Shown here: piece after piece, positions 22,436 to 64,000 of the stretch
Position numbering within the stretch: the first letter of the stretch is position 1
Layout: every line of letters begins with the position of its first letter
Origin: Pseudopyrenochaeta lycopersici
Taxonomy: Eukaryota; Ascomycota; Dothideomycetes; Pleosporales; Pseudopyrenochaetaceae
Assembly: GCA_003313425.1 (NCBI GenBank)
Contig: NHZP01000092.1
Span: 1 to 64,000 of the forward strand
DNA: 64,000 bases
Direction: 5' to 3'
Notes under the pieces: generated by a model
What the model was told of the DNA's origin: nothing
Database searches by the model: none
What the model saw: only the letters and a program-made list of their open reading frames with translations
Translations under genes and position numbers: made by a program

Positions 22436-22453
22436 CCTTTCACTAGAAAGTTG
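22436..22453. promoter_or_regulatory. Origin half-hairpin at host junction (J1)
   Basis: Only the right arm (CACTAGAAAGTTG) is present. The left arm and TATATATGATT are replaced by host telomeric repeats. The break falls exactly between TT and CC. Confidence 0.85.
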
Positions 22454-22833
22454 TCAAGTGGTCAGGAGCCTTGCGCTTCTGATCCTAGACACTTTACACG
22501 TATGCGTTGCCTACGACTGGAGGGAGTAGCGAAGCGTTAGTCTCTTTAGAGGCTAGGGGCAATGCACGCTTAAGTAACCCGGCGCACGGACGTAGCGCGA
22601 GATCATCTGATCTCCGGGTTGCCACATTTTTGGTCTCTGACCTAATTGGCCTGTGGATGCAGGGATGCACGGAGGTGATGTAGGTGCGCGATTGGGTTGG
22701 GAGCGTTGGTTTACTTGTGCACGGACGTGTCACTGCGGCGCGGTGTCTGCGCGTTGTATAAATGGTGCTCGTTCCCACGGGTCTCGTGGCACCGGAGGTT
22801 CTTCTTTTCCTCACTCTTTGAGTGTGCCTTATT

Positions 22834-23716
22834 ATGGATGCACGATGGAATGTCTGCACACTTGTTTCGAGTCAGGGAGCTGACGGACGGTGGAGCTCTA
22901 TGTTTACGTCTTGTTTGCAAGGTGGGGCGTTGTACGCTGCTACTGTCGTTGCTGCTGGGACAGCTTTACTTGGGAAGCGGAGGCGTAAGCCCGGTAGTGA
23001 TCCGGGTCTCTCCAGAGTAGGTCTCTGTTTGGCGCTTGTGTAGCATGATAATGCTGACTCCTTCGTTTTTGCAGGTTCCGAAGGTACAGAAGGTCGATAA
23101 ATTGCTCGAAGGGCCCGCGAAGTGGTTCCTAGAACGTCTGTCAACTATATCCACGAAGTGGGGGTTTCTTAGATCTTGTGGGAGCGAAGAAGTCGCTTTG
23201 GTGGAGAGCTTTTTACGTGCCAAGGTGGACCTTGCAGAGTATAACGTGGTGCGAAATTTAGAAGGCCTGTCTGCTCCCTCTGTTATGGGAAGCCTCATGT
23301 ATGGAGCGGATACACTGAGATGTTATCCCTCTGTATTCACGGGGGAGTACCCGCCGTTGAGTGTCGGCGATGGTTGCGGGCCAGTGAATGCTGCCTCTAT
23401 GGATATTGTGGAAACCCCGGGACTGTCCGGTTTTGGATCCGGTGGTGGTGGATGCGCTTATGTCGACCCTGCTTGGCTGGAGCCCCCGGAAGGGTTTTGT
23501 TGTTATGCTAGTAGTTTTGTACTTCCTGGCCACTCTGACAGTGTGGCTTCTGATTACGATTCCGCTGATTGGATGTCATTAGCACCAGAACCCTTTAACA
23601 GCGATGAAGGAGAGGGTGGTCTTGGTCTTGTAGAGATGGAGGACTGGGAGCTGGGGGCTCTTACGGATGTGTTGTATGATCGTAGTGGGGATCTGTTGTT
23701 AGGGGAGTATTCGTAG
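22834..23716 (+). CDS. Unit 1: spliced single-pass membrane protein, unknown
   Basis: Exon 1 22834-23016 (61 codons) and exon 2 23075-23716 are joined in phase 0 across a 58-nt intron with GTAGGT at the 5' end, a TGCTGAC branch site and TTTTTGCAG at the 3' end; 274 residues. TATAAAT lies at 22757, and the chosen ATG is the first one well placed after it. Residues about 31-47 (ALYAATVVAAGTALL) form one hydrophobic segment followed by KRRRK, fitting a membrane anchor with the basic side cytosolic. The rest is acidic towards the C-terminus, with a Gly-rich patch (GFGSGGGG). It is unlike the other units' proteins and has no family that I recognise. Membrane association could suit movement, entry or exit of the element, but that is speculation. 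Confidence 0.7.
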
Positions 23717-24005
23717 GTATGGAATTATTGTAGGGTATGTCTATTTTATGGTTGACTTATTGTGCAGTTGGTCTACCATTGTGTACGATCTGTTTTGATG
23801 GACTGGATTATGTAGAATACCTATGTTGTATTCGCAAGATTTTTCATTTTGGGTGTGAGCGCCCTTGGGATGGAACACCATCTCCAAAGAAAAAAAAAAT
23901 GCATAAGTCCATTTTTGCTGTGGCTGGGGGGGCACGCCGAGTCAGGTTGGCTGTGGCTCGGGAGAGTCAGCTGTGGCGCGGATTCTGCGCGCACAGACCA
24001 GAAAT

Positions 24006-24048
24006 CAACTTTCGAGTGCTATATATGATTCCTTTCACTAGAAAGTTG
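24006..24048. promoter_or_regulatory. Origin hairpin J2 (unit 1/2)
   Basis: Short-loop type: left arm CAACTTTCGAGTG with one mismatch to the right arm, loop CTATATATGATTCCTTT. Presumed Rep nick after 24030. Confidence 0.8.
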
Positions 24049-24455
24049 TCAAGTGGTCAGGAGCCTTGCGCTCCTTACCCTTGCCACTTTACAATTAAGC
24101 AGGGCCGGCGAGTGGAACGAGTAGCGAAGCGGTAGTCTTGAATAAGACTAGGGCCTCTGCACTTAGTAAGCAACACAGCGCACGGACGTAGCGCGAGATC
24201 ATCTGATCTGTGGGTTGCCACATTCTTCAGATTTTTTATCTGATTGGTCTATGGATATGGAGGCAGGGAGTGTGCAGGACCCTGCTAACTAGGGACTAAC
24301 ACATCTTGGCGGGGCCAAGGGTCTGGGAGACAGATTGAGATATATAAGAGAGGGGAGCGCCCTCCTATCTCTAATATCAACGGAGGTGTGCTTTGTTCGG
24401 TTCAGTTGTAGTCACTACATAGTGAACGTATTGTACGTAAGTAGTAGCGGTAGCT

Positions 24456-25233
24456 ATGGCGATGGAGTCGTTGCACGGAGTTGGCGTTTTCAGAGAACGT
24501 AGTATATTGTGTAGTAACAAGATGCCGGCGGGTACGTCGAGCGAAGCGTTTGCAGGGAGTGAAGAGCAGATGGAATGGGTGCGGAGTCACATTCCCGGTA
24601 GGTACTTCTTTCTCCTCGGGAAGTTAGTATCCTTTAACTGACACTGGGACAGAGTTTGTGGAACAAGGTGTTTCTCTTACATGTCATGTAAACCCGTGGG
24701 GGGCACGGTGTTGGTGGTCAACGAAGGAGAGTGGGAAGCTCTCTCGCGAATGTGTAGAGGAACAGCACAGTCCGTGTCTTAATGATTACGAAGTGATTGG
24801 CGCGGGCGGCGACAGGAGACGGGCGCTCCTTGTGTTCAAGGTGGACATCTTGGTAGGAGATGAATTGCAGAGCAATGTTGCGTTTGCGCAACTCTCTTTA
24901 GAGACACTGGAGGTGTTCCTGCAGGATGTTTTACCTCGTGTCTACTCGCTTGAAGAGAATTCGGTGGATACCTATATTGTGGACGATTTGTTCCACTCGT
25001 TAAACGTCGGGTGTTACTCTACGACGGTAGGGTGCGGATGCACGCGTTCTGATATTTGTATGAAGTGCGCGCCGGTGAGGATAGAGCGTGCTAGGTTTAT
25101 CGTGCTCCACAGATTTACCTCTGTTTATCCGTTTGGCTTGGGGAGGTGGTTTGATGGAATCAGCGATGCAGCAGGGACTGTGTACCCGTCGGGAAAAAAC
25201 TGGTTGAGTTGTTCCCATAGCCGTGTTCTGTAG
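24456..25233 (+). CDS. Unit 2: spliced WWxTKESG-family protein
   Basis: Exon 1 24456-24597 and exon 2 24653-25233, a phase 1 intron of 55 nt (GTAGGT...CTGAC...GGGACAG); 240 residues. TATATAAG at 24341, CCAAT box (ATTGG) near 24245. Family landmarks in exon 2 are EFVEQGVSLT, a double-Trp motif followed by TKESG, CVEEQH, a hydrophobic LLVFKVD strand, a helix-like AFAQLSLETLEVFLQDVLP, a CxCx5CxxC motif (GCGCTRSDICMKC) that could bind zinc, and a C-terminal GISDAAG..YPSGKNWLSC block. No known family comes to mind, so function is unknown. The unit appears base-for-base identical to unit 11. The exon 1 segment differs strongly between members, whereas exon 2 is conserved. Confidence 0.8.
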
Positions 25234-25576
25234 AGCACGATGTATTTTGTCTGGCCTGGAGGAGCTGCATTGAGGTAGACATAGTAGAGTTTTATTAACG
25301 ATTTTATTGTAAAGGATGCAGAGGAAACGATAGGTATATGTGTGGAGAGCAATTAGCGAGCATAGTGGTAATGCAGGTGTGGACCTGTTATGGCCGGCAG
25401 GTATTGAATTTACATTACGGGGTGTTGTAACGGAGTGTTGTTGTAGGACAACCCAAAAAAAAACGGTAAGTCAAAAAAAAATCCCAAGTTTTTTTGGCTA
25501 AGTCCGATTTTGCTGTGGCTGGAGGGCCATGCTGGGTCACGTTTGCTGTGGCGCGGGGAGCGCACAGGCCCCGACT

Positions 25577-25630
25577 CAACTTTCTAGTGTGGCGAAAAGC
25601 CTATATATGATTCCTTTCACTAGAAAGTTG
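25577..25630. promoter_or_regulatory. Origin hairpin J3 (unit 2/3)
   Basis: Perfect 13-bp stem. The loop carries a mini-stem GGCGAAAAGCC before TATATATGATTCC. Nick presumed after 25612. Confidence 0.85.
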
Positions 25631-25992
25631 TCAAGTGGTCGAGAGCCTTGCGCTCGGGACCACGACGGCTTTACTCTAAGCTTTGCCCGCGACTGGAGGG
25701 AGTACCGAAGGGTTAGGCTCTTTAGAGGCTAGAGGCAAGAGCCCTGGTAAGTAACACGAAGCACGGACTGTGCGGGTCATCTGATCTCAGGTTACCCACA
25801 TTTTATTTAATCAGGCTTCTGATTGGACTATGAATATAGAGTCATGGAATGGGCTGCCCTCTGCCTGCTAGGGACTAGTGTGTCTTGGCAGAGATAGCAT
25901 GGACATGTCTATATAAGAACAACAGAGGATCTGTTTTCACGGATGTGTCCTACATTATGTAGTGTTTTCTTTTGTTCTACTGCTATATTGCG

Positions 25993-26786
25993 ATGGAGTC
26001 GCGTGTCGGGCAGGGTGCTGATGTGGGGACCACTAGCACATCCACCTTTCTATCTGCAATAGATAGGATACAGGAAGGAAGTTCCTGTACATTGTCTGTA
26101 GAGACGCCCATGGAGTTTGAAGGCGTGAGAGATCACGTGCCCAGTCAGTGTCTTGCCTTTTCCCTAGACACGGAAGAAGTTGGGGGAGGGCCCCGACTAA
26201 CATCATCACAGAGTTTGTGGAGTATGGGATGTCCCTTACTGTCTACGTAGGTCTTTCGCGTAGGCGATCTTGGTGGATTACCAAAGAGAGTGGACGCTTT
26301 CCTGCCGAGTGTGTGGAACAACACCACATGGAGTGTCTAGAAGGTCACAAGGAAGGTTGTGTTTCGGGAGCCGCACAGCAGTCGCTCCTGGTTCTTAAGG
26401 TGGATGCACCGGCCCATGGGCGTGTATGGAGTTTCGTTGTTTTTGCTCAGCTCTCAGTAGTGGCACTGGATGTGCTGGTGGAGCGCGTTATCCCTCTTCT
26501 TGCATTGCCGGAGGGGCAGTTGGCAAATGCCCTATTTGAGAACAGATTGTTCATTATGTTGAACCATGGGTGGTACAGTACGTGCGTGGACTGCGCCTGT
26601 ACGCTGCAGAGAAGGTGTGAGCCTTGTGGGTTTGTAAGCCATACTTCGCGGAGGTTCCTTTGGATCAGTAGATTTGATAATCTATTCTTATGTACAGGGT
26701 GTAACTGGTGGAGCGGTGTTACCAATGCAGTTGGAGTAGTACAGCCGCATGGTGTTGACTGGCTGACTTGTCCAAGTAGGATGTAG
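25993..26786 (+). CDS. Unit 3: spliced WWxTKESG-family protein
   Basis: Exon 1 25993-26143, exon 2 26212-26786, 68-nt intron with the less usual donor GTCAGT and acceptor CATCACAG; 241 residues. TATATAAG at 25910. The start lies in the recurring GCGATGG(A/T)(A/G)TCGC context used by most members. Exon 1 contains the variable SxxxLSVETPMEF...VRDHVP segment. Exon 2 keeps SWWITKESG, CVEQHH, SLLVLKVD, the VDCACTLQRRCEPC cysteine motif and a shortened C-terminal block (GVTNAVGVVQP). Function unknown. The acidic-hydrophobic alternation suggests a compact beta/alpha fold rather than a membrane protein. Confidence 0.78.
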
Positions 26787-27174
26787 TTTATGTGGCTCAT
26801 GGAGTGGCAGTACTCTATTGTAATTAAAGAGGGGTGGTCCTTTATACCTATAGATATAGGTGTTGAGTCGATGTATACGAAGTTGTATAGCTTGGAATGG
26901 TAAGTACCTGTCTCATGGTATAGGTATTTTATTTCCTGTTTCTTTTTTTAAAAAAAAAAAAAAATCCGTATATATTGTAACACAAATTAATTATGTTGTA
27001 CAGATTCTGCATAGTAGTAAGAACAATGAAGAAATTGTAGTGCGGAGCTCGGTCAGTAAGGGTGGGAGCCCTTCAGATGGAACATCAAACCTCTCGAAAA
27101 ATGCGTAAGTCCATTTTTGCTGTGGCTGGAGGTCACGTTTTACCGGGGTGCTGAAAAATTTTTCAGCCACGACT

Positions 27175-27227
27175 CAACTTTTCTAGTGTGGCGCAGCCTA
27201 TATATGATTCCTTTCACTAGAAAGTTG
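27175..27227. promoter_or_regulatory. Origin hairpin J4 (unit 3/4)
   Basis: Stem with one bulged T in the left arm (CAACTTTTCTAGTG); mini-stem GGCGCAGCC in the loop. Just upstream is a strong palindrome GCTGAAAAATTTTTCAGC in the place where other units carry GCGC stems. Confidence 0.85.
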
Positions 27228-27690
27228 TCAAGTGGTCACCAGCCTCGTGCTGGAGACCCTGGACACTTTACATCTAAGCTGTGGCCTCGAGTGGAACGAG
27301 AAGCGGACGCGTCAAGCTACTTGTAGTTTGGGGCCATTGCCCCCTGTAAGCCAACAGACGCACGGACTGTGTGAGTCAGATGACGCTGGGTTGGCACGTG
27401 AGGAGCACCCCTGCCCTCACATCTACTAGATGTTCATAGCTATGGACACAACGGAGTGGGCGCATTATGGAATAATAGTCTTGGCAGAGACAGATACCTG
27501 GATAGAGTTCGTTATACTATGGAGTGTAACGCTTATAAGGAAACGGGTGTGTCCCGTTACCTTTCCTTATTACCAATTTTTTTTGCGTCTATTTACAGCG
27601 TGTACCGGGTACCGCTCGTACTAGAGGTATCGAACGTAGCTTGGTGGAGGCAGTTCTTGTTCTTGGACATGTTGTCAGCGTGTAGCGCCC

Positions 27691-27867
27691 ATGATGAGTG
27701 CTGATAAGGCGTACGTCGCGGAAGCGTTACGCAGTTGTATTGTAGGACGTATGTCGGTCGATAGCCTGGTAGGGCTAGTTTGCGGTGCGTATGGTTTCGG
27801 ATACCACTGGTACACTATCCGAAACAACCTTTCTTCCCTTTTGTCAAGGCATGGCGATGCTGCTTAG
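27691..27867 (+). CDS. Unit 4: unresolved gene, possible first exon
   Basis: ATG 27691 opens a 58-codon frame (MMSADKAYVAEALRSC...) of protein-like composition. It stops at 27865, or is spliced onward. Downstream, a second + strand frame in another register (about 27880-28283) carries a hydrophobic segment and acidic patches, but it has no good ATG. I could not find a splice pair joining them convincingly. The leader is nearly identical to that of unit 15 and lacks a clear TATA box. The unit has 1570 bp, so it is full length; the gene may be diverged or decayed. The long AT-rich stretch 28284-28650 is unassigned filler. Confidence 0.35.
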   Translation: MMSADKAYVAEALRSCIVGRMSVDSLVGLVCGAYGFGYHWYTIRNNLSSLLSRHGDAA

Positions 27868-28744
27868 TGGAATGGATTTTGAGTAGAGTGACAGGTACTG
27901 CTAGTGGGTGCTGGGGAGGCACCGCGGTTTCGGTACGACTGTCCGTTGTTCGCGATGAGGCAGGATGCGTAGGCATGCGAGCGTCAGTGATGCGCCCGCG
28001 TTCATCCTTTCTGTATTGGACGAAGCGTTGTCACGTAGTGCATGGCAAGACGTTGCCGTTACATTTGTCTGAGGGAGGCACTGCTGCGGAGCGTGTGCGT
28101 ATTTGTTTGTGGCTGCTCCTTGTGGAGCTTTGCGTAGTTGCGTCGGAGGAGGATGAATTCTCCTCTTGGATTTCACATCGTTACTTGTTGTGTGGAGCAC
28201 CTTTTATGGGAATTACGAGGGCTCCGTTCGCGTGGGGGGCCTTCGTAGTATGCGTAGCTATAGTAGTATGGGGGGCTACCTGACCCTGGGAGGTGTTTGT
28301 ATGTACATACAGAGAGGGTTTGTTACATAGTATACTATGCATTTATCTAGTCTATACGATATTTATGTTGGTATAGTGTATCATTACCATTATGGTAATA
28401 GTAGATGTATATCTCTTAGTATACGTAGTCAGAGTGTGTAGGTGTCGTAATAACTACGTCTGGTTACGAATAACAGCATAGTTTTTTATATACATAGAGT
28501 ATAATACCATTATACTATGCATTATAGCTAGTTATAAACAGAGCGATTCTATAGTGTTGATGTGTAGAGCGTTTTAATAGTTTCAGGGCTAAGAAATAAT
28601 TTGATTGTATGGATATTTGGTAGAAATTGGGGTGTGAGCCCTTGTAGATGGAACACCATCTCCAAAGAAATTGGCGAAGTCCGATTTTGCTGTGGCTGGA
28701 GGTCACGTTTTACCGGGGTGCTGAAAAATTTTTCAGCCACGACT

Positions 28745-28797
28745 CAACTTTTCTAGTGTGGCGCAGCCTATATATGATTCCTTTCACTAGAAAGTTG
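28745..28797. promoter_or_regulatory. Origin hairpin J5 (unit 4/5)
   Basis: Same sequence class as J4, including the upstream GCTGAAAAATTTTTCAGC palindrome and the GGCGCAGCC mini-stem. Nick presumed after 28779. Confidence 0.85.
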
Positions 28798-28994
28798 TCA
28801 ATGTGGTCGGCAGCCTTGTGCTGCCTGACCCATGTAACTTTACTGTAAGCTTTGCCTGTGACTGGAGGGAACAACGAAGTGTTAAACTAGAATTAGTTTA
28901 GAGGCAATGCACTATTTATGCAATGCATGACGTGGATACGGTCCTTGTGGAGCATGGTTGAGTCATTGCAGGCAAGGGCGCTGCCGTGCTCTCG

Positions 28995-29007
28995 TCACGT
29001 GGATGCG
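28995..29007 (+). promoter_or_regulatory. CACGTG-type promoter element, unit 5
   Basis: TCACGTGGATGCG, identical to unit 15 (44814) and one base different from unit 16 (46342). It replaces the usual CCAAT box in units carrying Rep-like genes. Confidence 0.6.
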
Positions 29008-29279
29008 GGGTTACTGTGAACGGAGGTGAGGTACCGGCTGGTTTTCGTTGCCTGCGAAGGCATTCTTAACGTAGTTGATCTTTTATCTTGTCTGCGGGGC
29101 TGGGCACCACGCAGGACTGTTTGGCACGGAAGTGCTTCAGGGGATTCGACGTCTTTTCCAATGAAAAAGAGCAGGCTGCGGGATCGTTGGTTCTATCCTT
29201 ACCAACTCCACCACGGTCAGTGGGGTTGCGAAGATCGCATATCAGGTTTATAGTGGAGGCTTGCGGGTAGCTCGTCCCT

Positions 29280-29873
29280 ATGTCCCGCTCGCGTAGGCAG
29301 CGTTCTTGTAGGAGCCGTCGTGTTGGAGGCACATCAGGTCAACCTGTTTCCATGCCACCCGGATCGGGTTTACAGAGTGTGCATGAACCGCGTCGTTTTC
29401 GGTCCAGGTTCGAGTTATGGGGCATTGAGGGTGTCTTTATGCCCCGTGATAGGTTCTTTCTCGTCCACTATGCGCCTTGGACAGGCCCGTGGGGCGTCAA
29501 CAATGTGGAACAGGAGTTGTCCAATGTTTTACCTGCGGAGGCTGAGTTTTATGCGAGTCTGCGTGTGGAACTGCATGACCGGAGGTGGTTACGCTGTGTG
29601 TATGCCTTGGTGGACTTTGGCCCTGTGTCAGTGCGGACAGTGGTTTGGCTGCATGAGAGTCCCTTCCGTGTTGCGGAGTCTTCGGGGATAATTGCAGGAC
29701 TTTGTGGCCGGCCAGGCACTCGTGGATCGAACGTACAGTGGCATCGTGAAGCGTTAGCCTCAGTTGCAATGTGGCAGAGGCGCATCGAGCGGTGGCGTGG
29801 TCTTGTGGGGCTCGTTCGCGATCCTTTGGTCGTTAGGCAAGACGAGTCTGCTGTACATACATCAGGTGTGTAG
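29280..29873 (+). CDS. Unit 5: Arg-rich protein resembling a catalytically dead HUH Rep domain
   Basis: A 197-residue single-exon protein from ATG 29280. The N-terminus is strongly basic (SRSRRQRSCRSRR), as in nucleic-acid-binding or capsid proteins. Residues about 58-110 follow the layout of the Rep domains in units 15 and 16: a FFLVHY strand in the place of motif I, then a LPAEAEFYASLRVELHD stretch matching MPPGTEIYG..ERHEDG, then RCVYALVDF where the catalytic HYHAV.F lies. The two metal-binding histidines are absent, and I see no clear YxxK. It shares the CACGTG element with the Rep units. It may be a Rep paralogue turned into a DNA-binding regulator, or an unrelated Arg-rich structural protein. 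The relationship is an inference by eye. Confidence 0.6.
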   Translation: MSRSRRQRSCRSRRVGGTSGQPVSMPPGSGLQSVHEPRRFRSRFELWGIEGVFMPRDRFFLVHYAPWTGPWGVNNVEQELSNVLPAEAEFYASLRVELHDRRWLRCVYALVDFGPVSVRTVVWLHESPFRVAESSGIIAGLCGRPGTRGSNVQWHREALASVAMWQRRIERWRGLVGLVRDPLVVRQDESAVHTSGV

Positions 29874-30200
29874 CAAACGGAGTTGTATTTTGGCGGTTGC
29901 TAACAATATTCTATAGGGTAGTACTGACCATATCAGTACTTTGATGTTGTTCAAGCTCTGCTTTATCCTTTGTTATGGCGTGCTCGCAGAGGTTTATTGC
30001 TTTGTCATGTTATGCGTAATGTGTTACGGTAGTATGCGTTGTATGCTTTTTCAAGCCCGGTATGCAATTTTTTGTATGCTACTGGTCATGCAGTCATATT
30101 TGTATTAAGGTACTATATTTTTGTATCGTTTTAGGAATTGATGTATTGGTAATGGCGGAAGCTATTATCTTATGGTAGCGTAGGCTATATTGTTAGTGGG
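29874..30200. other. Unit 5 3' filler
   Basis: AT-rich, non-coding stretch between the gene and the conserved pre-hairpin block. Its length complements the short gene so that the unit totals 1582 bp. Confidence 0.5.
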
Positions 30201-30326
30201 TACACTACGTTTGGAGGAACAATAGTTTTGTGTCTCAAAAATTGGCTAAGTCCAATTATGTGTGGCTGGAAGACACGCTGAGTCACGTTAGCTGTGGCGC
30301 GGATTTGACGCGCACAGACCCGTCCT

Positions 30327-30379
30327 CAACTTTTCTAGTGTGGCGCAGCCTATATATGATTCCTTTCACTAGAAAGTTG
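30327..30379. promoter_or_regulatory. Origin hairpin J6 (unit 5/6)
   Basis: Left arm with one bulged T, mini-stem GGCGCAGCC, invariant TATATATGATTCC. Nick presumed after 30361. Confidence 0.85.
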
Positions 30380-30761
30380 TCAAGTGGTCAGGAGCCTTGC
30401 GCTCCTTACCCCTGACACTTTACACCTAAGCAGGGCCTGTGACTGGAGGGAACAGCGAAGCGGTAGGCTTTTTAAAGCCTAGGGGCCATGCACGCTTAAG
30501 TAACACGAAGCACGGACTGTGTGAGTCAGATGACGCTGGGTTACCCGTGGGTGGCACTCCTGCCCCCACTCCGTCCTCAATCAGTTGTCTGATTGGTCTA
30601 TAGCTATAGACGCATGGAATGTGCATTTGGTTGCTCACTAGGGACTAGCATTTCTTGGCGAAGACAGCATGGACATGAATATATCACACGAACAGAGAAT
30701 CTGTGTTCACGGATGTGCTTCACTTCCTCAAGGGTTTGTTTTCTTCTTGTATTACCGCGCG

Positions 30762-31544
30762 ATGGAGTCGCAAGCCGGGCAGGGCACTGGCAATGCGGAG
30801 GCTGTTTCTGCTATAAGCTTCTTGTCTCTTCTAGAAGCGTTGGAGGAAGGAAGTTTTTTCCTATTGTCTGTAGAGACAGGTGCGGAGCGGCAATGCGTGA
30901 GAGGTCACGTGCATAGTCAGTGTCTTTTTTCCCACTCGTCTTCTAAAACTGACGGAGTAGCAGCGCTAGTGGAACGCGGGATGTCTCTCACAATCTTCTT
31001 GGATTTGTCGGGGAGACAATCTTGGTGGGTAACTAAAGAAAGTGGACGACTCTCTCAACAGTGTGTGGAGCAACAGCATATATTTTGTCTAAAAGATTAT
31101 AAGGAACTTAGTGCCGAAGGTGGGACCCGGCAGTCGCTCCTGGTCCTCAAGGTGGATGCACTCCACCCGGATGGGGTGGTCGAGAGCCAGGTTGCTTTTG
31201 CGCAGCTCTCGGTAGAGGCACTCGATGTGGTCGTGGAACGCATAGTACCCCTTCTCATCCTACCAGAAGGGCAGAGGGCGGATACTTTTATGACGTCTTC
31301 TATATTGTTGTACTCGTTGGACAATGGGTGGTACAGTACGTGTGTCGATTGCGCATGTACGGCGCGTAGAAAGTGTGAGCCTTGTGCGTATGTACAATTT
31401 TTTAAGGCTAGGTTTGTTCGAGTAGATGAATTTTCCGGGGTACGGCCATGTAGAGAGTCGTATTGGTTTACTGGGATCAGTGACGCTGTGGGAGCAGTAC
31501 TACCATCGGGAAGGAACTGGTTGAGTTGCACTCGTTTTTGGTAA
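30762..31544 (+). CDS. Unit 6: spliced WWxTKESG-family protein
   Basis: Exon 1 30762-30915, exon 2 30964-31544; 244 residues if the 48-nt intron (GTCAGT...ACTGAC...AGTAGCAG) is removed. The intron is a multiple of three and has no in-frame stop, so an unspliced message would also encode a full-length protein with 16 extra residues. ATG 30762 has the family context GCGATGGAGTCGC. Exon 1 ends in a VRGHVH-like segment. Exon 2 carries SWWVTKESG, CVEQQH, SLLVLKVD, LSVEALDVVVERIVPLL and CACTARRKCEPC. The promoter TATA is weak (AATATATCA near 30679). Function unknown. Confidence 0.78.
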   Translation: MESQAGQGTGNAEAVSAISFLSLLEALEEGSFFLLSVETGAERQCVRGHVHSQCLFSHSSSKTDGVAALVERGMSLTIFLDLSGRQSWWVTKESGRLSQQCVEQQHIFCLKDYKELSAEGGTRQSLLVLKVDALHPDGVVESQVAFAQLSVEALDVVVERIVPLLILPEGQRADTFMTSSILLYSLDNGWYSTCVDCACTARRKCEPCAYVQFFKARFVRVDEFSGVRPCRESYWFTGISDAVGAVLPSGRNWLSCTRFW

Positions 31545-47657: not shown

Positions 47658-47726
47658 ATAGATAGAATGAAAAATGGCTATGTCCATTTTCGTGGTGGCG
47701 GTGCGGGTCGCGCACAGGCCAGAACT

Positions 47727-55612: not shown

Positions 55613-55665
55613 CAACTTTTCTAGTGTGGCGCAGCCTATATATGATTCCTTTCACTAGAAAGTTG
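55613..55665. promoter_or_regulatory. Origin hairpin J22 (unit 21/22)
   Basis: Bulged-T left arm, mini-stem GGCGCAGCC, GTTGAGCAAGTGG right flank. Nick presumed after 55647. Confidence 0.85.
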
Positions 55666-56168
55666 AGCAAGTGGTCGGCAGCCTCGTGCTGCCAGCCCTT
55701 GCAACTTTACTCTAAGCTTTGCCTATGAGTGGAACGAATAACGAAGTGTTAAACCACTTGGGGTTTAGGGGCAAAGACCCTTGTAAGCAACGCAGAGCAC
55801 GGACGGTGCGGGTCACTTGACCCTGCTTTGCCTCTTTTCTTTCAATCAGGCTTCTGATTGGGCTATGAATATAGACACAGGGAGTGGGCATGACATGGAA
55901 TAATAGTCTTGGCATTGCCAAGTAGTGGAACGTGTGACAGAAACATATAAGAGACAGAGATGTCTATATAAGAGGGGGGCGCCCTCCCCTCGTTTTGTAC
56001 ACGGAGGTGTGTTTTGTTGGCCTTTCTGCGGAGCCCTCTCTAGAAGCACTGGAAGTGTGTGGATTGTTTGAGCGGCCGACGCGCAATCTGTCGGCGTATG
56101 CTGGCAACCTGGACGTAGTACAATTGGACAACTGGACACGCAATCCGTGTTGTCGTCTCTGTGAAGAG

Positions 56169-56707
56169 ATGCGAGCTGGAACAGCGGCCCTGGTTGAGGG
56201 GTCTTGCAAGGCGGGCAGCGTGTTTGATGCCTCAAGAGCAGTGTACGTCCTGCTCTATGCCCAAGTTGCGCTTGGTTTGTGGACGCTATGTAGGGCGTCT
56301 TCCGTCTGGAGGAGGGTGCGGAGCGACGAGCGTGTAAGTGATTGCTTTTATTGCAACACGTAGTGTGGTTGACTCTAGCACAGTGCGCGGCGCGTGTATG
56401 GGCTGTGGTGACTGGCAGTCTTGCCGTCACTTTCATTGGAGTATTAGCAGGTCTTGCGTTTGCTCCCTGGTTGAGTTGGGTGGCATGGTCACCTCGATGT
56501 CAGCCTCCTGTAAAGGGCATGAAGGGCGTTCTTGTGTGGTTACAAGTTGCGGGTGCAGCGCAGAGCGGTGTCTTACTTGCCACGGCCGTGGTATCCTGGC
56601 CATTTGACGGAGTTCGTGGTATGCGTGACGCGTCTGAAGCGTATGTGTCTCTTTTGCACCTATTCCACAGTCTAGCGGTGGCGTGGGTTGCGCGAAGCTG
56701 CTGTTAA
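56169..56707 (+). CDS. Unit 22: spliced multi-pass membrane protein, unknown
   Basis: Exon 1 56169-56333 (55 codons) and exon 2 56384-56707 join in phase 0 across a 50-nt intron with a consensus GTAAGT donor, TTGAC branch and AGCACAG acceptor; 162 residues. Hydrophobic segments lie near residues 24-36 (VYVLLYAQVALGLW), 60-80 (AVVTGSLAVTFIGVLAGLAF), 100-118 (GVLVWLQVAGAAQSGVLLA) and 137-152, suggesting four membrane spans. The same frame stays open upstream to about 55995 with protein-like content (SLEALEVCGLFERP) but no ATG, so translation may begin earlier by splicing. A short upstream ORF starts at 56097. Two TATA boxes lie at 55944 and 55965. Role unknown; a movement- or pore-type protein is one possibility. 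Confidence 0.65.
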
Positions 56708-57050
56708 ATTGTAGCTATATGGGTACCATCGTTCTTACTGTGTACCAGATGCGTGAAGCGAATGCATTGTCTGTTGGCAGTGATGGAATGAAATCATGGA
56801 AGGAATAATGGAATTTGTTAAGGGAGTAGGGTTACGAGCTGTGTGCAAGAGATAGTTACAGTGTTTATACTATATTGATCTCTTTTTGAAAAAAAAAAAA
56901 AAAAAAAAAAAGAGGGATGAAAATTAACAAGGTATAGTTTTTACATGTTATACATTGAGTTATACGTAATAACTAATAAAGTACATAGTTTTATGTGGTA
57001 CAGTAAGAGGGACTCTTTTATCGTGGAACACTAAACAGTTGAAAAATTGT
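56708..57050. other. Unit 22 3' filler with poly(A) run
   Basis: Non-coding. It contains about 23 consecutive A residues near 56889-56911. A long filler accompanies one of the shortest genes, keeping the unit at 1575 bp. Confidence 0.5.
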
Positions 57051-57186
57051 ATTACAGAGCTTGGTTGGTAAGGGTGTGGATGCCCTTCGCTCAGGAAAAA
57101 AAAAGCGTAAGTCCATTTTCCTTGTGGCTGGAAGACACACTAAGTCACATGGAGTGTGGCGCATGGAGGGGGCACGGGCCCCGACT

Positions 57187-57240
57187 CAACTTTCTAGTGT
57201 GGCGAAAAGCCTATATATGATTCCTTTCACTAGAAAGTTG
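57187..57240. promoter_or_regulatory. Origin hairpin J23 (unit 22/23)
   Basis: Perfect 13-bp stem, mini-stem GGCGAAAAGCC. Nick presumed after 57222. Confidence 0.85.
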
Positions 57241-57610
57241 TCAAGTGGTCGGCAGCCTCGTGCTGCCTACCCTTGTCACTTTACAATTAAGCAGGGCCGG
57301 CGAGTGGAACGAGTAGCGAAGCGGTAAACTAGAATTAGTTTAGGGGCATGCACTTAGTAAGCAACGCAGAGCACGGGCGCGTGCTGATCATCTGATCACT
57401 GCTTGCCCACATTTTCTCAGATCTTTAGTCTGATTGGTCTATGTACATAGAGACATGGAGGGAGCAGCGCTCTGCTATCTAGGGACTAGGTGGTCTTGGC
57501 GAAGATAGCATGGACATCGATATATAAGAGGGGAGCCCCTTCCCCGTTCACGGAGTGTTACTGTTTGTAGGGAATGAACATTCTCTTTTATTATTTGCTT
57601 TTACAATGCG

Positions 57611-58427
57611 ATGGGGTCGCTCCTGGGACAGGGCAGTACTGTAGAGGTTACAGGTGACGGTCATTTACTGTCACTGGACACGCTTCTGCCGGGTCAGAGG
57701 GGCTCCCCCTTCGCTGGGACAGCGGCAAACATTCAAGAGGTGCGGAGGCACATTCCTAGTAGGTATCTACTTCTTTTCTCAGGTTGGGCCCTCCCCAACT
57801 AACATGATGACAGAGTTTGTGGAGGACTCTGTTTCTCTTACCGTTCATGTGGAACTGTCGGGAAAACAATCTTGGTGGCTCACCAAGGAGAGCGGATGCC
57901 TTCCTAGCGAATGCGTTTCTTGGGACCATACAGAGTGTCTGGAAGACTACAAGGAGTTCTGTGAACGAGGCGGTAGAGCACAGTCGGTCCTTGTGCTCAA
58001 GGTGGATACCCTGGCCAGGGATCAAGTGCGGAGTTCTGTTGTGTTTGCGGAGCTTTCGGTAGAGGCCTTTGATGTGCTTTTGCAGCGCATTTTACCTCTT
58101 ATCGCAACGCCGTCGGGGGAGAGGCTGGATATCGAAGATGTGGAGGCGTTGTTCTATCGACTGCGCTTCGGGTACTATAGTACGCGGGTCGACTGCGCAT
58201 GTACCTTCTACACACAGTGTGAGCCTTGTGTGTGTGCACACCGGATTTCATCGAGGTTTGTTCGCTTAGATGGATTTTCCCGTGTATGGGCGTTTGGAAA
58301 GCTTGACTGGTTCGCTGGGATTAGCGATGCGGTAGGAGAAATACAACCATCAGGACAGAACTGGCTTAAATGCTTAGATGATGGTTTTGGTTATCTTGGA
58401 GACCCTTATTTTGTTCAATACGTGTAG
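57611..58427 (+). CDS. Unit 23: spliced WWxTKESG-family protein
   Basis: Exon 1 57611-57758, exon 2 57814-58427, 55-nt intron (GTAGGT, CTAAC, GATGACAG); 253 residues, the longest ordinary member owing to a C-terminal extension (DDGFGYLGDPYFVQYV). TATATAAG at 57521. Exon 1 is of SLDTLLPGQRGSPFAGTAANIQEVRRHIP type. Exon 2 has SWWLTKESG, CVSWDHTECL, SVLVLKVD, AELSVEAFDVLLQRILPL and CACTFYTQCEPC. A GTTGGG/CCCAAC stem precedes the branch site. Function unknown. Confidence 0.8.
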
Positions 58428-58752
58428 CGTAGATAGGTGGATATGCACAGGTACGTTTGTGTAGTATTGGGATTGATATTGGTGTAGTCCGTGTATGGCT
58501 AATAGTATTGTCTTATAGTACTTTTTGAAATACCTGAGGTTTTTGTTGGACGCAGTATTTTTAGGCATGGAGTGGTGTTTTTGGAACAATCGTTGCTGTT
58601 GGCGTAGGCTGAATTTGGTAAGGGTGTGGACGCCCTGGGATGGAACATTGAAAATTATTTTTCAAAAAATGCGTAAGTCCGATTTTGTTGTGGCTGGAAG
58701 TCACGTTGGGTCACATGGAGTGTGGCGCATGGAGGGGGCACAGGCCCCGACT

Positions 58753-58806
58753 CAACTTTCTAGTGTGGCGAACCGCCTATATATGATTCCTTTCACTAGA
58801 AAGTTG
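58753..58806. promoter_or_regulatory. Origin hairpin J24 (unit 23/24)
   Basis: Perfect 13-bp stem. The mini-stem is GGCGAACCGCC, a 4-bp version showing a compensatory change relative to GGCGAAAAGCC. Confidence 0.87.
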
Positions 58807-59250
58807 TCAAGTGGTCGAGAGCCTTGCGCTCGGGACCACGACGGCTTTACTCTAAGCTTTGCCCGCGACTGGAGGGAGTACCGAAGGGTTAGGCTCCTTG
58901 GAGACTAGGGGCAAAAGCCCTGGTAAGTAACACGAAGCACGGACTGTGCGGGTCACTTGACCTCAGTTTACCCACATTTATTCAATCAGAGTCCTGATTG
59001 GTCTATGAACGTAGACAGCATGGAAGGGGCATGCCTCTGCCTACTAGGGACTAGTGTGTCTTGGCAAAGACAGGGTGGACATCGATATATAACCACAACA
59101 GCGTCTCTGCTGTTGGCACGGAGTGTGTTTTTATAGAATACTTCTTTTTGATTTAGGGTGGAGCCCGTTTTCTGTAGGGTTTTTTAAAGTTCCACCAAGC
59201 CGAAGGCTGGGGCTTAGGTTCTGTAGGTTTTTCTCGCGTGGAGCGCATTG

Positions 59251-59826
59251 ATGTTTGGGAAGCTTAGGCTGATCTTTTGTCCTGCAGTACTGCAGACTTT
59301 TGTCACGAGCCGCGCTTGTAGTAGTAGTCCGGGTTCGGACGCGATGGACTCAGATGCCATGGAATGGGAAGGTACGGATGGTACTGGCAACTCAGAAGGG
59401 GCTGTTAGGGGACCTGTTGCGGGAGATTCCGTGAAGCTCTCGAAACGTAGGAAGCGGGAGCGTCGTGGTCTTCGCACGAAGCCATCTTCGTTAGTGCACC
59501 AGCCGCCTTTTTTTAGAGAGGTTGTGCGGCGGGAGTCCTTTTCTAGAGCGTGGGAGCGCGAGGTTGTGGTGTGCCATTCTTGCACTTCCTTGTGTACGCG
59601 CGAGTCGTGTCAAGGTGCTCGTGTAGAGGAGCAGTGGGTAGTCAGCTATGTGCAGTTGTATGATCGTTCAGGGGCAACGCGGGTGTTGCCTTCGAGTGGA
59701 GGGCGGCTTTTATGGAAGAGCGACTGTGGCGCGGAGTCGTGGTTTAATGACATGGGGGAGCGTGTTCCCTATTCGCAGTCTGGAGCTGCGTTGTTCCGTG
59801 TGAGAATGAGTGGAGCTATTGAGTAA
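59251..59826 (+). CDS. Unit 24: basic nuclear-type protein with Cys cluster
   Basis: 191 residues from ATG 59251; in-frame Met codons about 30 residues on (DAMDSDAMEW) are alternative starts. TATATAAC at 59086. A strong basic patch (KLSKRRKRERRGLRTK, about 63-78) resembles a nuclear localisation or DNA-binding signal. A CHSCTSLCTRESC cluster follows and could bind zinc. The C-terminal third (ESWFNDMGERVPYSQSGAALFRVR) is unassigned. It belongs to no other group in the array. A regulator, silencing suppressor-like or nucleic-acid-binding structural protein would all fit, and the sequence does not decide. About 150 bp of leader between TATA and ATG contain no earlier good start. Confidence 0.6.
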   Translation: MFGKLRLIFCPAVLQTFVTSRACSSSPGSDAMDSDAMEWEGTDGTGNSEGAVRGPVAGDSVKLSKRRKRERRGLRTKPSSLVHQPPFFREVVRRESFSRAWEREVVVCHSCTSLCTRESCQGARVEEQWVVSYVQLYDRSGATRVLPSSGGRLLWKSDCGAESWFNDMGERVPYSQSGAALFRVRMSGAIE

Positions 59827-59829
59827 ACC

Positions 59830-60180
59830 GGAGGATTATGGTTATTGGAAGTAACATATCCGTTACTCTCTTTATTTGTCTGCGTGGAGGCAGTGACTGT
59901 AAGGGAAATAGAAGGTTAGGTTTGTTGGGCTAGGCAAAGCGTTTCAGTTACTGTCTGCTAATAAGGAGTTGTAGTTTTGTGGTATATGGAAATTTTGTAC
60001 GGTGTATTCGGAGAAGCTATTTGGATGAATATGGTAAGTTTTCGTTATTTTTCGATAGGTAGGCATTGAGTTGATAAAGGTGTTGTTTTAACATAGAAGT
60101 AGTATCTAGGATACGACTGTTACGTTAATTTGATTTTTGTAATTGCTATACTTTTGTATGGTTGTGAGGAAAATCGGAGA
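59830..60180. other. Unit 24 3' filler
   Basis: AT-rich non-coding sequence, no gene recognised. Confidence 0.4.
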
Positions 60181-60340
60181 GTTGTGGTGCGGAGCTCAGT
60201 CGGTAAGGGTGTGGGCGCCCTTGGGATGGAATACCGAAGATTAAACCTCTCGAAAATTGGCCAAGTCCGATTTCCCTGTGGCTGGAGGGCCATGCAGAGT
60301 CACATGGGTGTGGCGCGGATTTCGCGCACAGACCCGGACT

Positions 60341-60393
60341 CAACTTTTCTAGTGAGGCGCAGCCTATATATGATTCCTTTCACTAGAAAGTTG
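60341..60393. promoter_or_regulatory. Origin hairpin J25 (unit 24/25)
   Basis: Bulged-T left arm, with the base after the arm changed (CTAGTGAGGCGCAGCC). Nick presumed after 60375. Confidence 0.8.
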
Positions 60394-60807
60394 TCAAGTG
60401 GTCACCAGCCTTGCGCTGGTTACCCCTGACACTTTACACGTATGCGTTGCCAACGAGTGGAACGAGTACCGAAGGGTTAGTCTTGAATAAGACTAGAGGC
60501 ATAAGCCCCTGTAAGCAAAGCAGAGCACGGACGTCGCGGGTCAGATGACTCTTCTTTGCCACTCTTTTTATCAATCGGGTTTCTGATTGGTCTATGAACG
60601 TAGACGCAGGGACGGGGCACACTCGTGCTCCCTAGGGACTAGGTTTTCTTGGCGTAGCTTGAGGTAGATACCTATATAAGACTAACAGTGGAGCTGTTTT
60701 CACGAAGTGTTCTACTTTGTGTAGTTTCTTTTCTTCTACGCTGCGATTGTATCGCTTGCACTGATTAAGTGCGTACGGAGATTGTCCCATTTGATTCTTG
60801 TTTAAGA

Positions 60808-61656
60808 ATGGATCACCGCATCAGCGATAGTAGAGCGGCAGGCGTCGCGGGCCAGGATGGCGGGTCTGGTACTGCTGTAGGGATAACCAGCAATGGGAAG
60901 AGGGCGAAGCTTTGTCGGGACGATCCCACTGGAGGTGTTGTCTCTCTATTGCGGAGCAAGGAAGTCGTAGAGGATTTGTTATCACGTGTTCCGGAGCCAT
61001 CGCTGATGTCTAGCCGACCTGGTGGGGGAGGCTCGGTGTCGTATCTTTCAGCAACGGATGCTATCCGCCTTGCTAACAGGGTGTTTGGTTTTGACGGATG
61101 GGCAAACGAAATTCTCGAAGATGAACGGCTTGGAGAGGAACCGGGGCCGGTGTCTAAGACTAGGCAGTCTACTACGACTACGACTACGACGGTCTATTGG
61201 CGATCGAAGATAGCAGTCACACTGGCGGAGCACTTAGGAGGGGCGCGCCATGAGGATTGGGGCTATGGGAAGGCCACAGCTGCTAGTAAACTCGTAGCCA
61301 TTGAGAACGCAGCGAAGGAGTCTGTGACGGATGGCATAAAGCGAGCGTTGATTTTTTTTGGCGAGGCTACAGGGAACTGTTTTAAGGATCATGCCTATCT
61401 CGCCTGGGCACAGCGTGTTATGCGGAGCGGCGAGTGTGCTAGGAAGAGATTTTCTATGGATGAAGTTGTGCGTTTGGATGACGCAGGCAGTGATCGATGT
61501 CCCGCTGGTGGATCTACCAGTGCATTGGCTTCTCGGGTGGCTGTGCCTGTTACGAGGTCTCCTGTTAAGCAGGAAAAAGAGGTGGAACGGCTTGGTGGGG
61601 ACGCTGATATATTTGATTCAGATGATTTTGATTATGATATGGGGGAGTTCAATTAG
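60808..61656 (+). CDS. Unit 25: Rad52/Rad22-type ssDNA annealing protein
   Basis: 282 residues from ATG 60808; the frame extends upstream only to a GTG. TATATAAG at 60673. Residues about 80-198 match the Rad52 annealing domain: ATDAIRLANRVFGFDGWANEI, then WRSKIAVTLAEHL, then RHEDWGYG, KLVAIENAAKESVTDGIKRAL and FGEATGNCFKDHAYL. A Thr-rich insert (STTTTTTTVY) breaks one loop. The C-terminal part is short and acidic, without the Rad51-binding tail of cellular Rad52. It is expected to bind and anneal single strands, aiding recombination or concatemer formation among segments. The unit keeps the array's standard leader; the common start GCGATGGTATCGC is present as the mutated GCGATTGTATCGC 64 bases upstream. 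It was probably taken from a host gene. Confidence 0.9.
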   Translation: MDHRISDSRAAGVAGQDGGSGTAVGITSNGKRAKLCRDDPTGGVVSLLRSKEVVEDLLSRVPEPSLMSSRPGGGGSVSYLSATDAIRLANRVFGFDGWANEILEDERLGEEPGPVSKTRQSTTTTTTTVYWRSKIAVTLAEHLGGARHEDWGYGKATAASKLVAIENAAKESVTDGIKRALIFFGEATGNCFKDHAYLAWAQRVMRSGECARKRFSMDEVVRLDDAGSDRCPAGGSTSALASRVAVPVTRSPVKQEKEVERLGGDADIFDSDDFDYDMGEFN

Positions 61657-61925
61657 GTACAATGTAACCATTTTTTGTATTACGTTTACATTGCGTACAG
61701 GTTTGGTGGAACTGTTCATTTGGTAACGAACGTTATTCCATTGTAGTTGTTTATTGCGTGGTGCTTCGTCATGAAGGGTGTGGGCGCCCTTGGGATGGAA
61801 CATCAAATCTTCAAAAAAAAATGCGTAAGTCCATTTTCCCTGTGGCTGACAGTCACGTTGGCTGTGGCTCGGGAGAGCGCACATGGGTTGCTGTGGCGCA
61901 GATTGTGCGCGCACAGGCCACAACT

Positions 61926-61968
61926 CAACTTTCTTGTGCTATATATGATTCCTTTCACTAGAAAGTTG
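61926..61968. promoter_or_regulatory. Origin hairpin J26 (unit 25/26)
   Basis: Short-loop type CAACTTTCTTGTG, GTTGAGCAAGTGG right flank. Nick presumed after 61950. Confidence 0.8.
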
Positions 61969-62324
61969 AGCAAGTGGTCGGCAGCCTTGCGCTGCCAGCC
62001 CTTGCAACTTTATCTTAAGCTCTGCCCGCGAGTGGAACGAGTAGCGAAGCGGTAAACTAGAATTAGTTTAGAGGCAAGAGCCCTGGTAAGCAACACGCAG
62101 CACGGACCGTGTGAGTCAGATGACCGCAGGGTTGCCCACTCTTTTTCCAATCAGTACTGTGATTGGTCTATGGAGATAATATCATGGAATGTGCACTTAG
62201 TTGCTCTCTAGGGACTAGTGTGTCTTGGCAGCGCTCAAGACAGGGACATATATAACAACAGTGTCTCTGTTGGCACGGAGGTGTTGCACTCCCCTAAGGG
62301 ACTTTGTGCTCTTTTTGCACTACG

Positions 62325-63109
62325 ATGGAATCGCTACAGGTAGTAGATAGTGTAGGGACTACGGATAATAGTCATTTGCCGTCAGTCGACCAGCTTCGGC
62401 CGGGTCAGAGGGGGGAGCCCTTTCCTGGGACAGTTGCAAACATTGAATACCTGCGGAGTCGCGTGCCTGGTAGGTATCTACTTTGGTTTCTCACGTTGGG
62501 CCCTTCCCAACTAACCTCATCACAGAGTTAGTGGAGGACTCTGTGTCCCTTACCTTCTGTATGGAATTGTCGGGAGAACAATCTTGGTGGCTAACCAAGG
62601 AGAGCGGACGCCTTCCTACCGAGTGTGTGGAGGAACAGCACACGGGGTGTTTAAACGCTCGTAAGGAATTCTGTGCCTTGGGGGGTACCCTAAAGGCATT
62701 TCTTGTCGTGAAGGTGGAGACGGTGTATCAGAACGAGAGGGATACAATCGTTGCATTTGCGGAGCTCTCCCTAGAGGCGCTGGATGTGGTTGTGCAGCGC
62801 ATAGTACCCCTTCTCATCCTGCCAGATGGGCGGATGGTAGAGGCTTATGTTGTGGAGGCATTGTTTGATATACTGTCCCGAGGTGGTTTTTCTACGCGGG
62901 TGGACTGCGCATGCACGCTGCACAGGATGTGTTCGCCTTGCGCATCGTTAGAGTATGCGCTTGCTCGGTTCGTTTTTTGCGACCAATTTTTGAGTGTATG
63001 GCCGTTTTTCAAGCGAGACTGGTTCACTGGGGTCAGTGATGCGGTAGGCATGATACAACCGTCAGGAGAGGATTGGCTGTCTTGCCTCACCGAGTATTCC
63101 TCAGAATGA
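62325..63109 (+). CDS. Unit 26: spliced WWxTKESG-family protein
   Basis: Exon 1 62325-62469, exon 2 62526-63109, 56-nt intron (GTAGGT, CTAAC, CATCACAG); 242 residues. TATATAAC at 62249. Exon 1 ends GQRGEPFPGTVANIEYLRSRVP, the same as units 9/10 in this part, while its first half differs, so exon 1 itself looks mosaic. Exon 2 has SWWLTKESG, CVEEQH, AFLVVKVE, AELSLEALDVVVQRIVPLL and CACTLHRMCSPC. A GTTGGG/CCCAAC stem lies before the branch site. Function unknown. Confidence 0.8.
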
Positions 63110-63489
63110 TATCTTTTTGCCTTCTCTATGGTAAAAGTTTTCTATGGTAATGTCAATCGTATAGATTTTGGATAAAGCGTATGCTTATGTTGTTATTCTT
63201 AGGGCATTATAGAGTAGTGTAGCTTTTTTTCATACAGTGTAGTCTATTTGTATATCGTAGTAGGTACATATTTTTATATTTAGTTTATTTATCTTCTTTT
63301 AATAGAAGAGAAAGCTAATGTAGGAGTAGCAGGCATAGCAGGCTGGTTAGAAGAACGAAGGGTGTGAACCCTTAAGATGGAACGTCGAACCTTCGAAAAA
63401 AAAATGCGTAAGTCCATTTTCCCTGTGGCTGGAGGGCCATGCAGAGTCACATGGAGATGTGGCACATGGGGGGGCACGGGCCTCCCTGA

Positions 63490-63542
63490 CAACTTTTCTA
63501 GTGTGGCGCAGCCTATATATGATTCCTTTCACTAGAAAGTTG
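63490..63542. promoter_or_regulatory. Origin hairpin J27 (unit 26/27)
   Basis: Bulged-T left arm, mini-stem GGCGCAGCC. Nick presumed after 63524. Confidence 0.85.
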
Positions 63543-63923
63543 TCAAGTGGTCACCAGCCTTGCGCTGGTTACCCTTGCCACTTTACAATTAAGCAGGGCA
63601 CGCCTAGGGACTAGGCAGCGGAGCGTTAAACTACGAGTAGTTTAGGGGCCATGCACTTAGTAAGCAACACGAAGCACGGACAGTGCGGGTCATCTGACCA
63701 TGGGTTGCCCACTCTACTTCAGAGCTTTAGTCTGATTGGTCTATGAATATGGACGCATGGAATTGGCATGGTTCTGCCTCTTAGGGACTAGGTGCTCTTG
63801 GCGGCGCACAAGGAAGGGACGTATATAACCACAACAGTTCCTCTGTTGTCACGGAGGTGGTGCACTCCCTCAACGGACAGTCAGATCGGGTAGTTTTCTG
63901 ACCCGCATGGTTTTGTGTAGGCT

Positions 63924-64000
63924 ATGGAGTTGCCACGCGTAGCAGAGCGCACAGAGAACGCGCTCCTCTTGACGGCTGATAGGCTTAGTAAGGGCATGTA
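63924..64000 (+). CDS. Unit 27: start of a gene, cut by the window end
   Basis: A leader with CCAAT box, CTAGGGACTAG-like word and TATATAAC (63822) is followed by ATG 63924, opening 25 codons to the window edge (MELPRVAERTENALLLTADR...). The start resembles neither exon 1 sub-type closely. An earlier ATG at 63906 gives only an 11-codon frame. The unit continues beyond the window. Confidence 0.5.
   Translation, partial: MELPRVAERTENALLLTADRLSKGM

Follow-up and report, generated by a model that had tools for sequence, protein, structure and literature searches.

The array in the window

The DNA analysed here, referred to as the window, consists of bases 1-64000 of contig C92 (85,695 nt) in the assembly of Pseudopyrenochaeta lycopersici (188 contigs, 62.7 Mb). 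It carries a telomere-linked helicase gene, a subtelomere ending in a short host telomere tract, and a tandem array of units of nearly constant length, one of which encodes a complete rolling-circle replication protein (Rep). The central point, missed by an original prediction made on this DNA, is that units and host telomere meet at exact junctions, GGGTT/CC on one side and GATT/AGGG on the other (the slash marks the joint). In our reading, the units are probably segments of a multipartite rolling-circle replicon of the circular Rep-encoding single-stranded DNA (CRESS) type, living, at least partly, as arrays on chromosome ends. The window contains the following features.

12670-17475, +: telomere-linked RecQ-type helicase gene (TLH; OrsD, DEAD and Helicase_C domains; Pfam PF12013, E 8.8e-23; PF00270, E 1.4e-17)
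18000-22415, no strand assigned: subtelomere; A/G-rich strand, 2.3% C
22416-22435, +: final host telomere tract, (TTAGGG)3TT, meeting the first unit as GGGTT/CC
22436-24030, +: unit 1, type S03, acidic orphan protein
24031-25612, +: unit 2, type S15, gene of the KESG (orphan) family
25613-27209, +: unit 3, type S16, KESG family
27210-28779, +: unit 4, type S09, orphan
28780-30361, +: unit 5, type S33, orphan whose N end is rich in arginine (29280-29873)
30362-31929, +: unit 6, type S34, KESG family
31930-33506, +: unit 7, type S17, KESG family
33507-35083, +: unit 8, type S35, orphan; frame similar to type S55 by blastp
35084-36667, +: unit 9, type S10, KESG family
36668-36685, +: inter-unit telomere tract, (AGGGTT)3
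36686-38270, +: unit 10, second S10 copy
38271-38288, +: inter-unit telomere tract, (AGGGTT)3
38289-39870, +: unit 11, type S15 again, identical to unit 2
39871-41448, +: unit 12, type S18, KESG family
41449-43015, +: unit 13, type S19, 238-aa protein, a distant member of the KESG family
43016-44591, +: unit 14, type S36, KESG family
44592-46188, +: unit 15, type S11, Rep-like gene, short and HUH-only (44959-45522, apparent intron downstream)
46189-47761, +: unit 16, type S01, complete Rep unit
46479-47657, +: Rep, 392 aa, HUH endonuclease and superfamily 3 (SF3)-type helicase
47762-49330, +: unit 17, type S06, KESG family
49331-50913, +: unit 18, type S20, KESG family
50914-52502, +: unit 19, type S21, KESG family
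52503-54069, +: unit 20, type S19 again, identical to unit 13
54070-55647, +: unit 21, type S12, KESG family
55648-57222, +: unit 22, type S37, orphan with hydrophobic stretch
57223-58788, +: unit 23, type S38, KESG family
58789-60375, +: unit 24, type S22, orphan
60376-61950, +: unit 25, type S04, Rad52-domain protein (60808-61656)
61951-63524, +: unit 26, type S39, KESG family
63525-64000, +: unit 27, type S23, KESG family, extending to contig base 65101

The core found at unit starts, searched with up to 2 substitutions, occurs 27 times at 22436-63525, always on the + strand (0 on the - strand), at spacings of 1566-1603 nt. The window thus holds 26 complete units, belonging to 23 types, plus one crossing its end; on the whole contig the array counts 40 units, all on the + strand, from 22436 to contig base 85577, followed by a terminal TTAGGG tract of 118 nt. 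The original prediction of at least 26 units in one orientation, attached to a telomere, is therefore borne out, the attachment being visible both in the host tract at 22416-22435 and in the terminal repeats.

Organization of the units

Units were examined in a non-random sample of 271,670 bases, containing 116 complete units, which form 59 types when grouped at 95% identity (29 found once, 17 in two copies). Their length is 1543-1599 nt, with a mean of 1577.5 and a standard deviation of 9.9. On the left, a unit opens with the half-hairpin CCTTTCACTAGAAAGTTG and a structured leader, followed by a CCAAT-like block and TATA-like motif near base 300, seen in 33 of the 59 types against 3 of 59 in a control stretch. 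Next come one main gene on the + strand, a conserved block and, last, the left arm of the hairpin, which terminates in TATATATGATT.

The 58-nt junction that each unit would form in its own circle, folded as DNA, beats all 30 shuffled versions in 54 of the 59 types, and fails to do so in 5. Joins between units fall at TT/CC inside the loop of this hairpin, as in hairpin-loop origins of the CRESS type. To the right of the unit start, the leader is predicted to form three stem-loops, with compensatory changes, 22 further pair types and 98.6% pairing over the 59 types (as this alignment also served to predict the structure, the compensatory changes outweigh the percentage as evidence), whereas controls in which the partners were slid by 1-3 columns give 34.8-49.4% pairing and 6-10 pair types. 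Both the loop hairpin, with the five exceptions, and the structured leader, which had been attributed to every unit, are thus confirmed. The position of the stems, upstream of the TATA-like motif, favours a role in single-stranded DNA over one in mRNA.

An intron-like pattern is found in 28 of the 59 types, compared with 11 in a reversed control, which makes splicing likely in some of the unit genes. The expectation of a single gene per unit holds roughly, several genes looking split by an intron.

Junctions with the telomere and between units

The assembly contains the exact 20-mer core at 836 sites, 337 on one strand and 499 on the other; its reversed pattern, used as a control, has 0, so that chance repeats are ruled out. 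No exact core has a base other than T before CC, or before TCC: the joint is always TT/CC. Forty exact junctions lead from telomere to unit (TTAGGGTT/CC), all in the single register GGGTT/CC, and 25 lead from a unit end into telomeric repeats as GATT/AGGG. Of these 25, 19 are followed by another unit at a distance of 6 (7 cases), 12 (2), 18 (5), 24 (4) or 30 nt (1), all multiples of six, and the remaining 6 stop at contig ends; the terminal tracts on contigs C92, C119 and C18 start directly at GATT. The presence of these 19 short tracts between units, genome-wide, points to repeated additions at chromosome ends. When TATATATGATT is followed by a base other than C (51 sites), this base is always A on array contigs, the other sites having the dispersed distribution that a common 12-mer would show (control, 170).

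Among 138 junctions examined individually, 111 are direct joins between units (GATT/CC), 16 join two units through (AGGGTT)1-5, and 11 join a host telomere, with 1-3 repeats, to a unit. Since three pairs of these host junctions, in C4/C101, C10/C92 and C99/C118, belong to overlapping contigs, about eight independent ends are represented. The host tract of C4 contains one additional G. All three pairs of same-type neighbours (C92 35084/36686, C101 28910/30511 and C81 15908/14328) are separated by a tract, to be compared with 16 of 127 unit-unit junctions overall. The geometry is that of a circle opened at TT/CC and a target opened at TT/AG, with no target duplication, the two Ts before the cut being common to origin and telomere. 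Insertion at telomeres follows one orientation, apart from a single inverted unit. The latter, on C101 (24186-25734), ends within the hairpin stem and is the sole case among the examined units.

Circles or linear multimers might also have been captured at broken ends by host end joining, with Rep playing no part in the joining and the units being rolling-circle concatemers. HUH replication does yield nicked linear forms, direct joins make up 111 of the 138 junctions, and contigs C18 and C119 resemble truncated subtelomeres with two new telomere repeats. End joining should, however, be accompanied by trimming, yet only TT precedes CC at exact cores, and the telomere tracts consist, without exception, of complete hexamers in a single register; moreover, concatemers of one circle would repeat one type, whereas neighbours are random. 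We regard this explanation as unlikely.

Distribution in the genome

Among the first 100 of the 836 core sites, arrays are seen on contigs C4, C5, C10, C18, C23 (at both ends), C50, C54 and C61, directed toward the contig end; more array contigs, outside these sites, were located by other searches. Arrays are not present at every telomere: C17 starts with telomere repeats, with no core among these first 100 sites, which span C4 to C61. Matches to an orphan protein of the window, all on a single strand, extend over 9.4-285.9 kb of C61 (301 kb) and 6.9-159.0 kb of C81 (164 kb), with 150 of 538 candidates scored. On this basis, individual arrays may reach hundreds of kb. As 106 of the 116 examined units carry the exact core, the 836 exact sites would correspond to about 915 units, or 1.4 Mb, in the whole genome.

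Bases 18814-22435 of C92 are 99.3-99.7% identical to the end of contig C10 (1.59 Mb), which likewise enters a unit of type S03. Because subtelomere and first unit are shared, C92 would most simply be the unmerged continuation of the chromosome end in C10.

Unmerged overlaps of this kind (C4/C101, C10/C92, C99/C118), together with indel-rich copies at some contig ends and an analysis based on assembled sequence, could indicate that long multimers of an abundant free replicon were wrongly attached to chromosome ends. Such a mis-assembly is very unlikely: in C10/C92, and likewise in C4/C101, two separate contigs agree on the junction, an identical, exact telomere junction recurs 40 times, and arrays are closed by terminal telomere.

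Mobility and order of the units

Units of the same type are identical over their whole length in 75 of 129 pairs, and differ by at most 3 substitutions in 117 of 129. In the flanks of identical pairs, identity ends within 39 nt to the left of the nick in 73 of 75 cases, and within 65 nt beyond the unit end in 69 of 73. Ordered pairs of neighbours are distinct in 91 of 92 cases, with 1 repeat observed against 1.42 expected in shuffles (C4, representing the same end as C101, was left out of this test). Given identical copies, identity ending at unit edges and random neighbours, units move singly, and have done so recently.

The window array had originally been described as one captured, integrated concatemer. 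This is ruled out by the random order of the units and by the occurrence of the same arrays at many contig ends, and is also at odds with the 19 telomere tracts between units. A better description would be that single segments have colonised chromosome ends repeatedly, each time at an exact site.

Another possibility is that units spread by telomere-initiated recombination and break-induced copying between ends, as for MoTeR arrays, with no present circle stage. The inter-unit tracts could serve as starting points, one tract lies between the members of each same-type neighbour pair, the combination S04-[3 repeats]-S02 is common to C119 and C81, and array growth of this type has been described for MoTeR. 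Copying of blocks should preserve order, while nearly all adjacent pairs are distinct, and identity between identical units stops at the nick. As the main route of spreading, recombination seems to us quite improbable.

Rep and other encoded proteins

One unit type encoding a complete HUH/SF3 Rep was found, S01, with nine intact copies in the genome, identical in protein. Two more S01 copies are broken, near the starts of C99 and C166, in indel-rich assembly regions; either decay or assembly errors may be responsible. The claim of exactly one complete Rep in the window is upheld: it lies in the unit at 46189-47761, while that at 44592-46188 has HUH motifs but no helicase. The latter frame is 46% identical to Rep over 122 residues and has three copies in the genome.

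Aligned Reps share the motifs VTWSQS, HYHAVFRF, NYCFKY, GPSRLGKT, LVLNDID and VTCN, the last three of which we take to be the SF3 Walker A, Walker B and motif C. A profile of 16 Reps, with HUH motifs I-III, matches geminivirus-type Rep chains in PDB with E values of 1.7e-5 to 6.4e-5, whereas the single sequence reaches only 0.15 and stays under the Pfam cut-offs. Gemini_AL1_M is matched by 10 of the 16 profile members, and the SF3 helicase resides on the same protein as the HUH domain. Fourteen homologous proteins were found, including those of Pyrenophora tritici-repentis, P. seminiperda and Colletotrichum sojae; identity to Rep is 52-57% for Pyrenophora and 40%, over 66% of the length, for C. 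sojae. The P. tritici-repentis and C. sojae homologues lie on contigs measuring 1600 and 1422 nt, respectively, close to the length of one unit. No viral relative was found in IMG/VR by protein, alignment or origin pattern, nor any phage or plasmid relative by tblastn; no genomovirus Rep turned up in the IMG/VR scans.

The KESG family of orphan proteins accounts for 37 of the 59 types and 65 of the 116 units. Its members are diversified, with conserved Trp, Cys and His, and are under purifying selection, none of the 203 usable pairs, out of 231, reaching a dN/dS of 1 (median 0.37). No homologue was found among the best 8000 candidates of a protein search and no convincing match in PDB (best E 0.079); the structure model is of low confidence (pLDDT 56.1), and that of the arginine-rich S33 protein unusable (36.7). 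Degenerate Rep domains, suspected by eye in S33, S35, S22 and the orphan family, found no support in profile comparison (probabilities 0.1-0.2%). The window frames scanned gave no match to a reverse transcriptase.

The presence of a Rad52-like segment, proposed from the beginning, is confirmed (unit 25, Pfam E 7.2e-28), and 13 copies of this domain are found in arrays. Membrane-protein segments, in contrast, are weakly supported in the window, hydrophobic stretches being limited to frames of the units at 27210, 33507 and 55648.

A single diversified protein family in 37 of 59 types, genes that look spliced and a host-type gene such as Rad52 would all fit host subtelomeric gene families, amplified together with a relic Rep and forming no replicon. 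Strand, origin hairpin, fixed length, scattered identical copies and exact nick-to-nick joins, however, need a site-specific replicon, and the element Rad52 copies are distinct from the one, split, host gene on C12 (1420587-1421134). An origin of this kind is extremely improbable.

Proposed mechanism

Single-gene units with a common origin, arranged one way round, and one complete Rep type are supported, as is the multipartite, CRESS-like nature put forward in the original prediction. The dependence of the other units on Rep in trans is supported conditionally: if they replicate, the one complete Rep type must act in trans.

Each unit, about 1.57 kb long, would be one replicon segment, excised and inserted nick to nick. 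From the junctions we infer how Rep might deal with telomeres. Its HUH tyrosine would nick the origin after GATT and remain bound to the 5' CC end, which Rep would then join to whatever TT-OH 3' end it is able to hold. Joining to the GATT of the same circle would result in replication, joining to the GATT end of a unit already on a chromosome end in growth of the array, and joining to a telomeric G strand ending in GGGTT in a first colonisation. The free GATT 3' end would become the chromosome terminus, to be either extended by telomerase in register (GATT+AGGGTTAGGG) or joined by the next unit. Segments devoid of Rep would be served in trans by the one complete type. HUH enzymes recognise bases 5' of their cut; for this reason, and because TT is common to both sites, a Rep cutting after GATT could also use GGGTT. 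Since tandem units each sit between two origins, Rep could release any of them as a circle.

More tentatively, this may be extended to a scheme, possible rather than probable, in which telomeric G-strand 3' ends serve the viral-type HUH Rep as acceptors, and eroded or freshly healed ends are lengthened by whole segments and no longer by telomerase alone. Chromosome ends would then be a heritable archive in which over 59 segments are kept, any of them open to release, nick to nick, by a single Rep acting in trans; the arrays, up to hundreds of kb long, may form a DNA-based buffer against erosion, and the HUH-only protein of unit 15 could be a dedicated joining factor.

Several observations weigh against the proposed replicon and its use of telomeres. 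Circles, particles, single-stranded DNA and cleavage of telomeric DNA by Rep are all postulated from assembled sequence, and no capsid gene was matched in Pfam by the window frames scanned, which cover part of the 59 types. The fixed GGGTT register could reflect a stopping or pausing point of the telomerase of this fungus, and not a choice of target by Rep. Entry tracts have 1-5 repeats, compared with 27-142 nt for terminal tracts as assembled: either units joined shortened or just-healed ends, or long tracts shrank afterward. In work on MoTeR, inner tracts of at least three repeats are reported to break. The subtelomeres of C18 and C119 are cut at positions equivalent to 11776 and 12194 of the window, carry two repeats ahead of the first unit, and look like broken subtelomeres healed first by these repeats, so that the end itself, and not the telomere, may be what is sought. 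On C5, the terminal unit (C5 1-130) is truncated, its telomere cap being attached at an internal point instead of at GATT. Finally, one repeated neighbour pair and one inverted unit indicate that ordinary recombination also acts on the arrays.

Comparison with known systems

The multipartite single-stranded DNA replicons known so far have at most about eight to ten segments. A chromosomal archive, if true, would explain how dozens are retained and make the persistence of multipartite genomes testable. It would also link such replicons with telomere biology; among the elements considered here, this one would be the first whose rolling-circle chemistry is directed at telomeres. The model predicts a simple joining reaction in vitro, between an origin 5' end and GGGTT-OH.

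Rep belongs to a known class, while the lifestyle matches no system known or found: no description of a Rep element at telomeres was found in the open-licence literature searched, preprints excluded.

A Botrytis mycovirus has segments of one length (1669-1707 nt, GC 46-49%) with about one open reading frame each and a shared stem-loop origin region, and a geminivirus-like Rep, with an intron, on one segment, all features resembling those seen here. The nick proposed for it is TACTCTT^CA, in one segment TACTCTT^AG. It differs in having four segments, a coat protein and purified particles, while at least 59 types and no recognised coat protein are found here; the main text of its description mentions neither integration nor telomeres, in contrast to the present arrays on chromosome ends. 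Fusarium graminearum gemytripvirus 1, a tripartite genomovirus, is likewise a fungal multipartite circular single-stranded DNA replicon (circularity being only proposed here), with three segments and no mention of chromosome arrays in the portion of its description available.

The MoTeR and FoTeR elements (PMC7367193, PMC12857005) are also fungal and telomeric, in tandem arrays of one orientation with short interstitial TTAGGG tracts, and FoTeR are accompanied by telomere-linked helicase genes. They differ by their reverse transcriptase, variable 5' ends and variant repeats, whereas here there is an HUH Rep, unit ends on both sides join at a single fixed point, and most units follow each other with no repeat between them. 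Telomere integration of human herpesvirus 6 (PMC5537676) offers a further case of a DNA virus maintained at telomeres.

Helitrons are HUH-type rolling-circle elements with a short target and no duplication, which encode a Rep fused to a helicase of the SF1/PIF1 type, have different ends and insert between A and T; an SF3-type Rep and a TT/AG telomere target set the present units apart from them. Human herpesvirus 6 is a large double-stranded DNA virus with its own telomere-like repeats, and is not known to involve joining at a nick site.

Subtelomere context

The subtelomere makes up the first 22.4 kb of the window. The helicase gene within it, at 12670-17475, is open over 1601 codons and features an OrsD-type N-terminal domain; its relatives include those of Parastagonospora, Paraphaeosphaeria, Pyrenophora and Bipolaris, all Pleosporales. 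The region at 18000-22435, adjoining the telomere, is 43% A, 39% G and 2.3% C on this strand, and contains many degenerate TTAGGG-like repeats. Related subtelomeres are found on C18, C119 and C101, with different cut points and two telomere repeats ahead of the first unit.

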